DNA of 64,000 nt. Source: Suttonella sp. R2A3. GTDB taxonomy: Bacteria; Pseudomonadota; Gammaproteobacteria; Cardiobacteriales; Cardiobacteriaceae. A program made the position numbers and the translations under genes. Shown piece after piece: positions 4,618 to 9,214 of this stretch; positions within the stretch are counted from its first letter, which is position 1, and each line of letters opens with the position of its first letter. The notes beneath the pieces were generated by a model that worked only from the letters and a program-made list of their open reading frames with translations, made no database searches and was not told the DNA's origin. The stretch lies in assembly GCF_021513215.1 (NCBI RefSeq), contig NZ_CP090975.1, positions 1,295,501-1,359,500 on the forward strand, read 5' to 3'.

Positions 4618-5325
4618 TTAGTGCTTGGCAGCGCTTTTAAATGATAATGTCGCCACGCTACGCTGAAGATGCGCGTATTCATCATCAGGTGTCGGATGAT
4701 TTACCAGTGCAGTCACAACATTGAGTCCGGCGTTACGCACGGTCAGGGTAACTTGTCCTTCCGCATTGGTTTTTTGTTGGTTTTTCGCATCACCGACATA
4801 ATCCGCGGTTACCGGCACATCTGCTTGTGGCTCGCCATCAACATAAACCGTTACCGTGAGGCTATCGCCTTGGGCAAGCGTTGATGGATCGGTCTCAGGG
4901 ATAACTTGTACCGGTAAGTCAAAAGGCACCATCTCACCCTGGTAAGGCTTCATCAGGCTAATGTTGTATTTGAGCGAAGTCGAGGTATCGGCTGGGTTGC
5001 TGATTGCCGCTTTATCGACTGCCTGCCATTTAACCGTCTCACCTTTCTCCCAATAACCATTATTGAAAGATGCGGTAATCACCGCAGCATCTTCTGCAGG
5101 GTTCACCGCACTGTGGTTACCTTGGCCAACAACTTCAACGCTAACGGGTTGGAAGTTCGCATCATAAGCCATGACTTTCTGGACTTTCTCTGGGCTGTAC
5201 TGGTCGTCAATAGCGCCCATCCCATAAACAATCCCTAACTCGCCATAGTGTGGTGCAACCCATACGCCATGCGCAAGCGCCGCGCCACTAGTCAACAAAA
5301 ATGCCGATAACAGTATTTTTTTCAT
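4618..5325 (-). CDS. DUF4198 domain periplasmic protein
   Basis: 235 residues with a signal peptide (MKKILLSAFLLTSGAALAHG, cleavage after ALA). The mature N-terminus starts HGVWVAPHYGELGIVYG, the His-containing beginning seen in DUF4198 proteins, a family often found beside nickel or cobalt uptake genes. The C-terminal half (residues 140-220, TVTVYVDGEPQADVPVTADY onward) resembles an immunoglobulin-like or carboxypeptidase-regulatory beta domain. A metal-related periplasmic role is inferred from family context only. An AGGAT ribosome site precedes the ATG. It stands alone behind a strong promoter whose spacer is a perfect dyad, so it is probably tightly repressed. Confidence 0.75.
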   Translation of the reverse strand: MKKILLSAFLLTSGAALAHGVWVAPHYGELGIVYGMGAIDDQYSPEKVQKVMAYDANFQPVSVEVVGQGNHSAVNPAEDAAVITASFNNGYWEKGETVKWQAVDKAAISNPADTSTSLKYNISLMKPYQGEMVPFDLPVQVIPETDPSTLAQGDSLTVTVYVDGEPQADVPVTADYVGDAKNQQKTNAEGQVTLTVRNAGLNVVTALVNHPTPDDEYAHLQRSVATLSFKSAAKH

Positions 5326-5496: not shown

Positions 5497-6813
5497 TTAT
5501 AACACCATAGCGCCGATCCAGCCGCTAAATATCAGTGGAATATTAAAATGGAGGAAGGTAGGGATCACCGTATCACGAATATGATCATGCTGACCGTCCG
5601 CGTTGAGCCCCGAGGTTGGGCCAAGCGTAGAATCGGACGCCGGCGAACCGGCATCGCCTAACGCCGCCGCAGAACCAACCAACGCCACAGTCGCCATTGG
5701 TGAAAAACCAAACTGTAAACACAGCGGCACATAAATTGTCGCGATAATCGGCACTGTCGAAAAGGACGAACCAATACCCATAGTGATAAACAGACCAATC
5801 ACCAGCATAATCAGCGCAGCAAACGCGCGATTATCACCAATAATCGCTAATGATGCTTCCACTAAAGCCGGTATTTCCCCGCTCGCTTTCATCACCGAAG
5901 CGAAGCCGGTTGCCGCGATCATAATAAATCCCACCATCGCCATTAAATGCATGCCTTGTAAAAAGACATCATTTTGCTCATGCCAACGAATGACCCCGGT
6001 TGCCGCTACACAGGCAAAGCCAACCACACCACCAAAAATCATCGACCCGGTGTAAAGCTGCGCCCCCAGCGCTAATAAAATCGCCAGTACAATCATCGCA
6101 ATTTGCCAAGGTTTTAAAGCACTATTTTGTGCCTTACGTTCACCGCTGATCGCTTGTTCGGCGTATTGGCGCGGTTTGCGATAGCTCAAAAAAAGCGCAA
6201 ACAATAGCCCGCAAACCATGCCTGCTGCCGGAACCAACATCGCTGGTGCGGCGATAGAGCGATCGACATCCATCCCCGAACTGTTGATTTGGCCAATCAA
6301 AACATCGTTAAGAAAAATACTGCCAAAACCAACCGGTAAAGTAAAATAGGTGGTCGTTATCGCAAAGGTAATCGCACACGCCACCGCACGGCGGTCTAAT
6401 TGAAGACGATTAAGCACATGCAACAATGGTGGGATTAAAATAGGAATAAAGGCAATATGCACCGGAATCAGTGTTTGCGAAAAAATCCCGGCAATAATCA
6501 AACCGCCATATATCAACACCATCAAGCCAAGGCGCTTGCTGCTCCCATCGATACGTTTGAGTAAGATGTCTGCGAGCTTTTGGGTAATCCCGGTACGCGC
6601 AAGAATCACAGCAAAGGCACCTAATGCGGCATAAGCTAAAGCCATCGTTGCCCCATCACCAAGGCCATTGTTGAATGCCTCAACAATCTCTTCAATCGGC
6701 ATACCAGCATATAGGCCACCAGCTACCGCGGCGACAATCAACGCAAAGACCACTGATACCCGAGCCACACTCAAGCCAACCATCAGCAACACAGCGAGCA
6801 CAATCGCATTCAT
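5497..6813 (-). CDS. Na+/H+ antiporter family protein (NhaC-like)
   Basis: 438-residue polytopic membrane protein, about 11-12 hydrophobic segments. It begins with three closely spaced helices (residues 1-30, then AMPIEEIVEAFNNGLGDG) and has the repeated motif region ALGDAGSPASDSTLGPTSGLN near residues 385-405, characteristic of the Na_H_antiporter/NhaC-type carriers. It probably exchanges sodium for protons at the inner membrane. Single gene; GAGAGAAGCTT precedes the ATG as ribosome site. Its 547-base upstream gap holds two candidate small RNA units, one on the same strand whose terminator ends about 150 bases before this start; a leader role cannot be excluded. Confidence 0.85.
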   Translation of the reverse strand: MNAIVLAVLLMVGLSVARVSVVFALIVAAVAGGLYAGMPIEEIVEAFNNGLGDGATMALAYAALGAFAVILARTGITQKLADILLKRIDGSSKRLGLMVLIYGGLIIAGIFSQTLIPVHIAFIPILIPPLLHVLNRLQLDRRAVACAITFAITTTYFTLPVGFGSIFLNDVLIGQINSSGMDVDRSIAAPAMLVPAAGMVCGLLFALFLSYRKPRQYAEQAISGERKAQNSALKPWQIAMIVLAILLALGAQLYTGSMIFGGVVGFACVAATGVIRWHEQNDVFLQGMHLMAMVGFIMIAATGFASVMKASGEIPALVEASLAIIGDNRAFAALIMLVIGLFITMGIGSSFSTVPIIATIYVPLCLQFGFSPMATVALVGSAAALGDAGSPASDSTLGPTSGLNADGQHDHIRDTVIPTFLHFNIPLIFSGWIGAMVL

Positions 6814-6961
6814 AAGCTTCTCTCACAATCCATAAAAAAAGGGAAGGTAATGAACTGGCCACCTGTTGTCAATCTTTTGTTTTTCTTAAAAAGATGCCGT
6901 AGCTGGCTGGCTAGAGAAAAAAGCGACCGGGCTTTTTTTGGTATTGTTCTATTAGTCAGAT

Positions 6962-7036
6962 AAAAAAAGCCCCAAGCACGGCTTGGGGCAAATCATCATG
7001 AGGCAATGTGACAGATTGCTTTCGCGCTCCATCGAC
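6962..7036 (-). ncRNA. Candidate Fur-regulated small RNA, RyhB-like
   Basis: A complete transcription unit of about 75 nt lies on the minus strand with no open frame. Promoter TTGACA (7069-7064), 17-base spacer, TATCAT (7046-7041); end at a 9-bp GC-rich hairpin (6969-6977 with 6981-6989) followed by seven U. The internal region contains GAAAGCA and UCACAUUGC, both of which occur in the conserved core of enterobacterial RyhB as I remember it. A Fur-like box overlaps the -10. Read together this is the architecture of an iron-starvation sRNA that would repress mRNAs of iron-using proteins with Hfq. Alternative: an attenuated leader of the antiporter gene downstream. Confidence 0.65.
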
Positions 7037-7038
7037 TG

Positions 7039-7069
7039 TAATGATAATTATTCCTAATATGCTTGTCAA
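7039..7069 (-). promoter_or_regulatory. Promoter and Fur-like operator of the candidate sRNA
   Basis: TTGACA-N17-TATCAT on the minus strand. The plus-strand sequence TGATAATTATTCCTA (7042-7056) covers the -10 and matches TGATAAT-N-ATTATCA at 11 of 14 fixed positions, with the left half perfect. Placement over the -10 is as expected for iron-Fur repression. Confidence 0.6.
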
Positions 7070-7141
7070 GCGCTTATTTCATTATGCTTTTATTTAATCA
7101 GTACCAGAAACATACTATATTGTTTTTATTCGATTTTATGG

Positions 7142-7170
7142 TTGCATAAAATAAATTTGATGTCTATAAT
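7142..7170 (+). promoter_or_regulatory. Sigma-70 promoter of second candidate sRNA
   Basis: TTGCAT (7142-7147), 17-base spacer, perfect TATAAT (7165-7170). It is divergent from the Fur-linked promoter about 75 bases away. Predicted transcript start near 7177. Confidence 0.65.
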
Positions 7171-7176
7171 GTCCGC

Positions 7177-7269
7177 CAATGGCAAGTGACACAATTGCGC
7201 ATGCGCAATAATACTAAAAAAATACAAACAATCCTCCATCTCCTAACAGCGCGTCAGCGCTGTTTTTTT
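7177..7269 (+). ncRNA. Candidate small RNA or attenuated leader with anti-Shine-Dalgarno stretch
   Basis: From the promoter the transcript would run about 93 nt to an intrinsic terminator: 8-bp stem AACAGCGC (7245-7252) with GCGCTGTT (7257-7264), loop GTCA, and a run of U (7263-7269). The body holds a perfect 14-base palindrome TTGCGCATGCGCAA (7195-7208), an A-rich single-stranded stretch, and UCCUCCAUCUCCU (7232-7244), complementary to ribosome-binding sites. These are features of Hfq-type trans-acting sRNAs. It lies 92 bases upstream of the CPA1 antiporter gene on the same strand, so it could instead be an attenuator for that gene and the dnaA operon behind it. Confidence 0.5.
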
Positions 7270-7360
7270 ATGCCCCGATCTTTGTTTGGCAAAACCGCAA
7301 GTAAACCAACGATTATGCTAAACTGCTTTCTTTTTTCTAATCGGTAAAAATAGACGTACG

Positions 7361-9214
7361 ATGCTCAACGAACCCGCTTTAATGTTGTCTTCTTTGTTGG
7401 CTTTAGGGATTGCTGCGCAGTGGCTTGGCTGGTCCACGAAAAAGCCAGCCATTATTTATCTGCTGCTGATGGGCATCATACTCGGTCCAACCCTGCAGCT
7501 ATTTAACCCTGATGAAGTTTTAGGCGAATGGTTATTTCCGCTGATTTCGCTTGGGGTCGCGATCATCCTTTTTGAGGGCGCGCTCACCCTGAACTTCCAG
7601 GAAATTAAAAGCCATGGTCGCGTCGTGACCAACCTCGTGACTGTGGGTGTGTTAATCACGATTGCCATCGCAACCGTCGCTGCCTTGTGGATTATGGACA
7701 TGAGCTTCGGATTGGCGCTGCTTTTTGGCGCGCTGGTGTGCGTCACCGGGCCAACGGTGATTGTGCCGCTGCTGCGTAGCGTTCGTCCTAATAAAAACAT
7801 CAGCAATATTTTGCGTTGGGAAGGCGTGGTGATTGACCCCATCGGTGCTTTGTTGGTGGTTTTGGTTTATGAATACATCATCGCCGGTCATTCACCGCTT
7901 ATCTTTGCCAAAACCATTGTTTTAGGGCTGCTGTTAGGTAGCTTGAGCGCCTATGTGCTTGCCCAGCTATTGAGAAAGCATTGGGTGCCGAAATATTTGC
8001 ATAACGTTTTCACCCTGGCTTTAGTGTTACTCATTTTCGCCCTATCGAACGCGCTGATTGAAGAATCTGGACTGCTCACTGTAACGGTTATGGGTATGGC
8101 TTTAGCGAATATGAAAAACGTACCCACTGACGATATTTTAGACTTCAAAGAAAGCTTATCGATCATCATTATTTCGATGCTTTTTATTATCCTTGCCGCG
8201 CGTATTAACTTCGATGGGTTCCAACTAATGGGCTGGAAAGGGGTGTTAATCTTACTCATCATTATGTTTGTTGCCCGACCGTTATCAGTCTGGGTTTCCG
8301 CCTTAGGATCGAATTTATCGACCAATGAAAAGCTCTTGATCAGCTGGATTGCCCCGCGTGGGATTGTCGCCGCCGCTGTTTCATCGCTGTTTGTCCTTAA
8401 GCTTGGCGAGATTGATGGCCATGATGTGTTAGTACCTTTGGTGTTCACGATTATTATCGGTACGGTGATGGTACAAAGCTTAACCGCGAAACCACTAGCC
8501 AATTGGCTTAAAGTCGCTGATCCCAACCCGAACGGGGTTTTAATCTCCGGGATTAACCCTTTTTCCTTACTTCTTGGCAAAGCGATTAAAGAAAACGGCT
8601 TTGATGTGATGTTAGCCAGCTCAAGCTATGATCAAACGGCCAAAGCGCGCATGGAAGGGATGAGCGTGTATTATGGTGATCTGGTTTCAGAGCATGCGGA
8701 TCGTCATCTCAGTCTGGTTGGCTACGGTCATCTTTTAGCGCTTCACCAACGCGATGAGCAAAATATGCTGGCGACCCTGCGCTATCGTAGTGAGTTTGGT
8801 CATCATCGAGTGTATCGCATCAAAGTTTCTTCGCGCAGAAACGACAACCAGCGCAATAATACCTATCAAGAGTGGGATAGCGCATGGTTATTTTCGCCTG
8901 AATATACCTATAGTGAACTGACCATGATGGTCAGCGGTGGCGCACAAACACGCAGTACCAATATCAGCGAAAGCTATGGCTTTGATCAGCTGCTCGCTGA
9001 AAATCCTAAAGCGGTGATGCTGTTTGCTATATCGCCGACGAAAAAAATCCATTTATTTTCCTCACAGGCAAACTTTAAATTAGATAAAGGCTGGAAAGTC
9101 ATTTTTATGCTGCCTTTTTCCAAAGAAAAGGAAGTGGAAAAAATTGCCAAGCGACAAGAGAAAAATGGACGTCGCCGCGCTGAAGATACCCAAACGAACA
9201 AGGATAACTCATGA
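7361..9214 (+). CDS. CPA1-family Na+(K+)/H+ antiporter with C-terminal nucleotide-binding-like domain
   Basis: 617 residues. Residues 1-380 form a 12-13 helix exchanger domain with family motifs: FEGALTLN near residue 68, GALVCVTGPTVIVPLL near residue 125, WEGVVIDPIGALL near residue 150 (carrying the paired acidic region expected in CPA1 carriers), and SWIAPRGIVAAAVSSLF near residue 328. From about residue 390 a soluble cytoplasmic part follows (NPNGVLISGINPFSLLLGKAIKENGFDV, cut here for length), resembling a Rossmann/TrkA-N regulatory fold. The C-terminal tail is highly charged. It overlaps the following phosphatase gene by four bases, so the operon appears to be antiporter-phosphatase-dnaA. 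Confidence 0.85.
   Translation: MLNEPALMLSSLLALGIAAQWLGWSTKKPAIIYLLLMGIILGPTLQLFNPDEVLGEWLFPLISLGVAIILFEGALTLNFQEIKSHGRVVTNLVTVGVLITIAIATVAALWIMDMSFGLALLFGALVCVTGPTVIVPLLRSVRPNKNISNILRWEGVVIDPIGALLVVLVYEYIIAGHSPLIFAKTIVLGLLLGSLSAYVLAQLLRKHWVPKYLHNVFTLALVLLIFALSNALIEESGLLTVTVMGMALANMKNVPTDDILDFKESLSIIIISMLFIILAARINFDGFQLMGWKGVLILLIIMFVARPLSVWVSALGSNLSTNEKLLISWIAPRGIVAAAVSSLFVLKLGEIDGHDVLVPLVFTIIIGTVMVQSLTAKPLANWLKVADPNPNGVLISGINPFSLLLGKAIKENGFDVMLASSSYDQTAKARMEGMSVYYGDLVSEHADRHLSLVGYGHLLALHQRDEQNMLATLRYRSEFGHHRVYRIKVSSRRNDNQRNNTYQEWDSAWLFSPEYTYSELTMMVSGGAQTRSTNISESYGFDQLLAENPKAVMLFAISPTKKIHLFSSQANFKLDKGWKVIFMLPFSKEKEVEKIAKRQEKNGRRRAEDTQTNKDNS

Follow-up and report, generated by a model that had tools for sequence, protein, structure and literature searches.

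A candidate iron-sparing small RNA gene with an invariant core in the Cardiobacteriaceae

We asked whether a short gap between two antiporter genes of Suttonella sp. R2A3 holds a small RNA (sRNA) gene in its own right and, if so, whether its product could spare iron. Fur-linked iron-sparing sRNAs occur in separate lineages (RyhB, PrrF, NrrF, HrrF, BrrF, FsrA, and IsrR) and share little or no sequence, and the Cardiobacteriaceae, the family of this strain, include human and animal pathogens. The locus lies in the window, the whole 64,000-nucleotide stretch of DNA that was analysed, which comes from a genome assembled as one 1.99-Mb contig. The TTGACA-N17-TATCAT promoter that a preliminary description had placed on the minus strand was present at 7069-7041. 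Its -35 element (TTGACA, 7064-7069) and -10 element (TATCAT, 7041-7046), both located by a promoter scan and separated by a 17-nt spacer, agree with the sigma-70 consensus at 11 of 12 positions, and this near-consensus promoter was the top promoter-like site within 6000-8000. The predicted transcript is ~73 nt long and occupies 6962-7034 on the minus strand, its start being placed to within 4 nt on either side from the position of the -10 element. It ends, as the preliminary description had also claimed, in a GC-rich terminator with seven U: the terminator scan returned an intrinsic terminator at 6962-6989 (minus strand), consisting of the 9-bp stem GCCCCAAGC-CGU-GCUUGGGGC at 6989-6969, in which 7 of the 9 pairs are G-C, and U7 at 6968-6962. 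Folding and cross-locus comparison placed a 5' stem-loop (GAUGGA...UCUGUC) at 7010-7033 and a 24-nt core, CUGUCACAUUGCCUCAUGAUGAUU, occupies 6991-7014, both on the minus strand. The predicted fold of the transcript was better than that of 196 of 200 shuffled sequences (z -2.5). The flanking genes, identified by domain matches, encode a Na+/H+ antiporter (PF03553; 5497-6813, minus strand) and a sodium/hydrogen exchanger (PF00999 plus TrkA_N; 7361-9214, plus strand); the site does lie between two antiporter genes, as described earlier, but this neighbourhood is incidental, the contexts varying by genus, and both genes stand outside the sRNA system. Downstream of the PF03553 antiporter gene, window positions 4618-5325 (minus strand) encode a DUF4198 protein whose N-terminus is signal-like.

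The family was sampled with 12 Cardiobacteriaceae genomes from 7 genera, and blastn of relatives pointed to the 24-nt block. This block, CTGTCACATTGCCTCATGATGATT, was identical at 11 loci in 10 of the 12 genomes and 6 of the 7 genera, and each of these loci also had a promoter and a terminator, so that the comparison of relatives proposed in the preliminary description came out in favor of a conserved gene. A control search with the reversed pattern gave 0 matches. Outside the family, a search of 367 other genomes of the class that allowed up to 2 mismatches did not find the core, and when 84,980 species genomes were searched for its 19-mer, only contigs of Cardiobacteriaceae had it; that set may omit records of the window genome or of very close ones. 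A covariance model gave E values of 1.1e-15 or lower at all 11 family loci, and its best match in the rest of the order (E 0.0021, in G025) did not carry the core; that match reads TTCACATTGCATCAGATGA, lies in apparent coding sequence, and was rejected. BLASTN matches to the locus in other families were likewise rejected for not carrying the core. A match in G013, from another family of the order, carried repeated CATGAGGCAAGAT without the sRNA anatomy and was also rejected. Near position 1520 of the G013 locus are tandem short repeats with CATGAGGCAAGAT, which resemble the complement of the core. Within the family, the sRNA is present twice in the sister species G001, each copy in a context of its own, and no copy was found in G011, an 86% complete genome, or, as far as the assembly shows, in G005 (1.5 Mb, 100% complete).

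These comparisons bear on whether the unit might instead code for a small protein or reflect a chance combination of a promoter, a palindrome, and a U-run. The preliminary description had claimed a transcript of ~75 nt with no open reading frame. The predicted length is close to this, but an AUG-started frame of ~26 codons (AUGGAGCGCGAAAGC...) is present in the window's genus, reads through the terminator, and has no evident ribosome-binding site. Its AUG is missing in the other genera, the 5' part of the RNA contains insertions and deletions across loci, and the 24 nt of the core are invariant at every codon position, all of which count against coding, while a chance arrangement is ruled out by conservation at 11 loci. 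We regard either version of this explanation as scarcely credible.

Across the 11 loci, the parts around the core change while their arrangement is kept. Promoter elements 16 or 17 nt apart are found at every locus, as is an intrinsic terminator; the terminator stem varies in sequence, but 86 of 88 stem pairs are standard, a count made on pairs placed by hand because MAFFT misregisters the variable terminators. All of the terminators are followed by runs of 6-9 U, which are compatible with Hfq, and assistance of the sRNA by Hfq is possible. The 5' part varies in sequence between genera, and at most loci it can still pair with the CUGUC of the core to form the hairpin. Between this hairpin and the terminator, ACAUUGCCUCAUGAUGAUU does not vary; it is predicted to be largely unpaired at most loci and partly paired in Rappaport, G010, and G007.

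The loci are spread over at least six gene contexts. The sRNA lies beside the antiporter genes in the window genome, ackA-pta at copy a of G001 (with the sRNA upstream) and in G007 and G010, a BMFP gene at copy b of G001 (again with the sRNA upstream), suhB in Cardiobacterium, radA/rnhA in two rumen metagenome-assembled genomes (MAGs), lipA/aspC in G003, and aspC with an amino-acid binding protein gene in Rappaport; suhB, rnhA, aspC, pta, and the amino-acid binding protein were identified by eye from their sequences. Because the contexts differ, conservation of the core is not explained by neighboring genes. An alternative is that the unit is a leader, an attenuator, or a terminator acting in cis on the downstream gene, and in several genomes a same-strand gene does begin ~70-180 nt downstream. 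Against this, G003, G008, and G002 have their downstream gene on the other strand, the downstream genes differ (antiporter, ackA, BMFP, amino-acid binding protein, suhB, and rnhA) while the core does not vary, and a strong terminator closes the unit at every locus, which together make a cis-acting element very unlikely. The differing contexts and the opposite-strand downstream genes therefore argue for a gene of its own rather than a leader. The sequence comparisons support an independent RNA gene bounded by its promoter and terminator, with a seed under strong purifying selection, and the predicted transcript, short, noncoding, terminator bounded, and independent of its neighbors, has the form expected of the Fur-repressed iron-sparing class.

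Since sdhC and acnA are classic targets of RyhB-class sRNAs, their starts were compared first. The core segment AUUGCCUC is a predicted 8-nt seed. Sequence complementary to it, GAGGCAAU, overlaps the ribosome-binding sites of four genes in the window genome, namely, sdhC, sdhB, acnA, and ccoN. The starts in this genome read CGAGGCAATT-ATG for sdhC and GTGAGGCAATC-ATG for acnA, and the sdhC start of G010 reads GAGAGGCAATGTG-ATG, with a duplex energy of -25.5 kcal/mol. Compared to the duplexes at 55 window gene starts, those of acnA (p 0.0009) and sdhC (p 0.02) were stronger, and AGGCAA was ahead of none of the 55. An open scan of the window genome for GAGGCAAT-N0-9-ATG gave 15 matches, 11 of which lay inside other open frames or opened no gene; the remaining 4 were real gene starts, those of sdhC, sdhB, acnA, and ccoN, and all 4 encode iron enzymes. 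The open scan of G001 returned ttcA, katG, norB, and acnA among eight starts. Pooling the scan matches examined across 8 genomes gave 25 starts, about 12 of them belonging to iron proteins, an excess with a binomial probability of 1e-7 at an 8% background and 1e-4 at 15%, where both backgrounds were assumed, real starts were judged by eye, and the p-values are not independent, the genomes being related. When the sRNA was shuffled, 10 of 11 candidate duplexes had p < 0.04. The RNA has complementarity to the initiation regions of iron-protein genes, another feature of the Fur-repressed iron-sparing class.

Part of the seed complementarity is generic because GAGG is itself a Shine-Dalgarno sequence, and several non-iron genes also had the motif (secG, rplI, aroG, truA, and a CitMHS-type transporter gene). 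In the Cardiobacterium genomes G004 and G009, the ribosome-binding site of a CitMHS/sodium:sulfate-type transporter gene carries GAGGCAAT, making it a candidate non-iron target. The target set proposed in the preliminary description was sustained in part: the complementarity at sdhC/sdhB and acnA is in keeping with an iron-sparing sRNA, but the sodB motif was clear only in G001. The relatives added katG, norB, ttcA, and sodB to the predicted targets. Complementarity to the sRNA was not consistent for frdC and most sod genes across the genomes compared, and it was suggestive for leuC in some genomes only. The two rumen MAGs have sdhC with AGGCAAT only, farther upstream, and Cardiobacterium has no clear sdhC, its best candidate being norB (-14.4 kcal/mol, p 0.054). 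The sdhC of the window genome (G000:C1:1667753 onward, about positions 253-640 of that locus, outside the window) starts with MENDNRPLSPHLQVYRWQ and has the rest of its protein in another frame, which reflects either a lesion or an error in sequencing. Near many contig ends of the rumen MAGs G002 and G008, GAGGCAATAATG recurs, which suggests a dispersed repeat or an insertion element rather than targets.

Iron control was examined at the promoter. The preliminary description had claimed a Fur-like box over the -10 element, and a candidate operator, TAGGAATAATTATCA, was found with a relaxed 7-1-7 consensus at 7042-7056 on the minus strand, where it would cover the spacer and the -10 element. 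It matches 12 of the 14 positions of the relaxed consensus, but the box is degenerate and moderately supported: it was marginal against shuffled sequences at the window locus (p about 0.06), and it matches at only 9 of 14 positions at 4 of the 11 loci. Combined across the 11 loci, the shuffle test gave p 3e-5, an optimistic value because the loci are related. Every locus has a half-site containing GAA in its spacer, a feature that would not be needed by a promoter alone. A matrix made from the sites in the sRNA promoters gave higher scores in front of TonB receptor genes than in front of controls (p 0.005). With a strict Fur consensus, TonB receptor genes were not clearly separated from controls (7 of 28 versus 3 of 20 at a score of at least 12). 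All 12 family genomes encode a Fur protein. The sdhC gene of G006 (Rappaport israeli) itself has a strong Fur-like box upstream, TAAGAATAATTCTCA, so that Fur may also act directly on sdh in this organism.

A conserved trans-acting sRNA on respiratory and tricarboxylic acid cycle genes could also respond to oxygen, redox state, or nitric oxide instead of Fur and iron. Targets such as sdhC, ccoN, norB, katG, and ttcA would suit a respiration or redox theme equally well, several loci have a weak Fur box, and some loci have TTGATT as their -35 region, which loosely resembles an FNR half-site. However, the element recurring in the spacer over the -10 element looks like a Fur site and not like a CRP/FNR palindrome, the site matrix is enriched upstream of TonB receptor genes, and the recurrent enzyme targets are iron proteins. 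On this evidence we judge a signal other than iron improbable, and repression by Fur-Fe with induction under iron limitation is the control that the promoter sites suggest.

The explanation that we consider likely is a trans-acting iron-sparing sRNA, functionally RyhB-like and specific to the Cardiobacteriaceae. An iron-sparing role had been proposed in the preliminary description, and the invariant core together with the complementarity at sdhC/sdhB and acnA supports that reading at the level of sequence. When iron is plentiful, Fur-Fe(II) over the -10 element would keep the sRNA promoter silent, and when iron is short, the ~73-nt RNA would be made. The 5' hairpin and the terminator would leave ACAUUGCCUCAUGAUGAUU mostly single-stranded, allowing AUUGCCUC to pair with GAGGCAAU where it overlaps the Shine-Dalgarno sequence of iron-enzyme mRNAs: those of sdhC, sdhB, acnA, and ccoN in the window genome and those of katG, norB, and ttcA in relatives. 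This pairing would block ribosome binding, probably lead to mRNA decay, and so spare scarce iron.

How this RNA relates to known families was examined with Rfam. At gathering thresholds, the window matched a tRNA only, and nine relative loci matched two tRNAs only. The RyhB model (RF00057) scored 18.3 bits, with a gathering score of 55, and the PrrF model (RF00444) 28.2 bits, with one of 90, both short of membership, and the NrrF model gave no match up to E = 10. The description of the RNA as RyhB-like held for the core, in which UCACAUUGC is an exact 9-mer of the Rfam RyhB consensus within the pairing region, but no Rfam score admits it to RyhB, PrrF, or NrrF. Like RyhB of E. coli and its relatives, the RNA is short, has a Fur-like box at its promoter, UCACAUUGC in the pairing region, and a U-rich terminator, and has predicted sdh and aconitase targets; it departs from RyhB in the remainder of its core, in a seed that covers GCCUC right at the Shine-Dalgarno sequence, and in that sodB is predicted in one relative only. 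Because a shared 9-mer exceeds chance (51 of 20,000 shuffled cores shared any 9-mer with the RyhB consensus), divergence from a RyhB ancestor, which would be compatible with the iron-sparing function favored above, keeps some weight. The common order of elements and the overlapping predicted targets also speak for such descent, but the 18.3 bits against 55, the differing remainder of the core, and the lack of intermediates in the order speak against it, and we hold it to be somewhat doubtful.

Nearly as likely as not is a separate origin from RyhB, with the same job done through the single 8-nt anti-Shine-Dalgarno seed AUUGCCUC, a regulon (sdhCDAB, acnA, cbb3 oxidase, nitric oxide reductase, catalase-peroxidase, and TtcA) that may be readable from one ribosome-binding-site motif, and loss of the sRNA where aconitase and succinate dehydrogenase have been lost. 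The genome without the sRNA that is 100% complete, G005, has Fur but is without aconitase, a strong sdhC, and TonB plug proteins, as expected, in this single case, if the sRNA is kept for those targets. In the literature searched, we found no paper joining the Cardiobacteriaceae with RyhB or with a Fur-regulated sRNA, and we found no annotated sRNA of the iron-sparing kind in the family; the RNA would thus be ordinary in mechanism, new in this lineage, and apparently undescribed. It would add a well-bounded further case of an iron-sparing sRNA for which the comparative evidence is unusually clean. With an invariant core in a changing shell and one motif complementary to the seed at the targets, its regulon can be directly predicted, and the RyhB 9-mer in the core bears on whether iron-sparing sRNAs share ancestry or have converged.

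Other families show partial likenesses. By E-value, the best sub-threshold Rfam match was Betaproteobacteria_toxic_sRNA (RF02278; 29.6 bits against 50), but this likeness lies mainly in the terminator and CCUC, and the first stem would contain nonstandard pairs. The sub-threshold match to PrrF1/PrrF2 of Pseudomonas extends across promoter, body, and terminator, whereas the longest word in common with the PrrF core is 6 nt; G001 has two copies, as Pseudomonas does, but not in tandem. HrrF of the Pasteurellaceae is a family-restricted Fur-regulated sRNA of ~97 nt with a perfectly conserved block at nt 29-64 (PMC4144887). Compared by description and not by sequence, the two RNAs are alike in family restriction and in a fully conserved internal block, but the synteny of HrrF is fixed (pmbA-hpt), whereas the Cardiobacteriaceae RNA changes context. 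The Burkholderia sRNA BrrF, which resembles none of the other Fur-linked sRNAs in sequence, reduces acnA, sdhA, and sdhC when iron is depleted (PMC7377471). Its predicted acnA, sdhC, and catalase targets resemble the set predicted here, but BrrF has no Fur box of its own and is probably coexpressed with hemP (PMC7377471), whereas the Cardiobacteriaceae RNA has its box-like site on the sRNA promoter.
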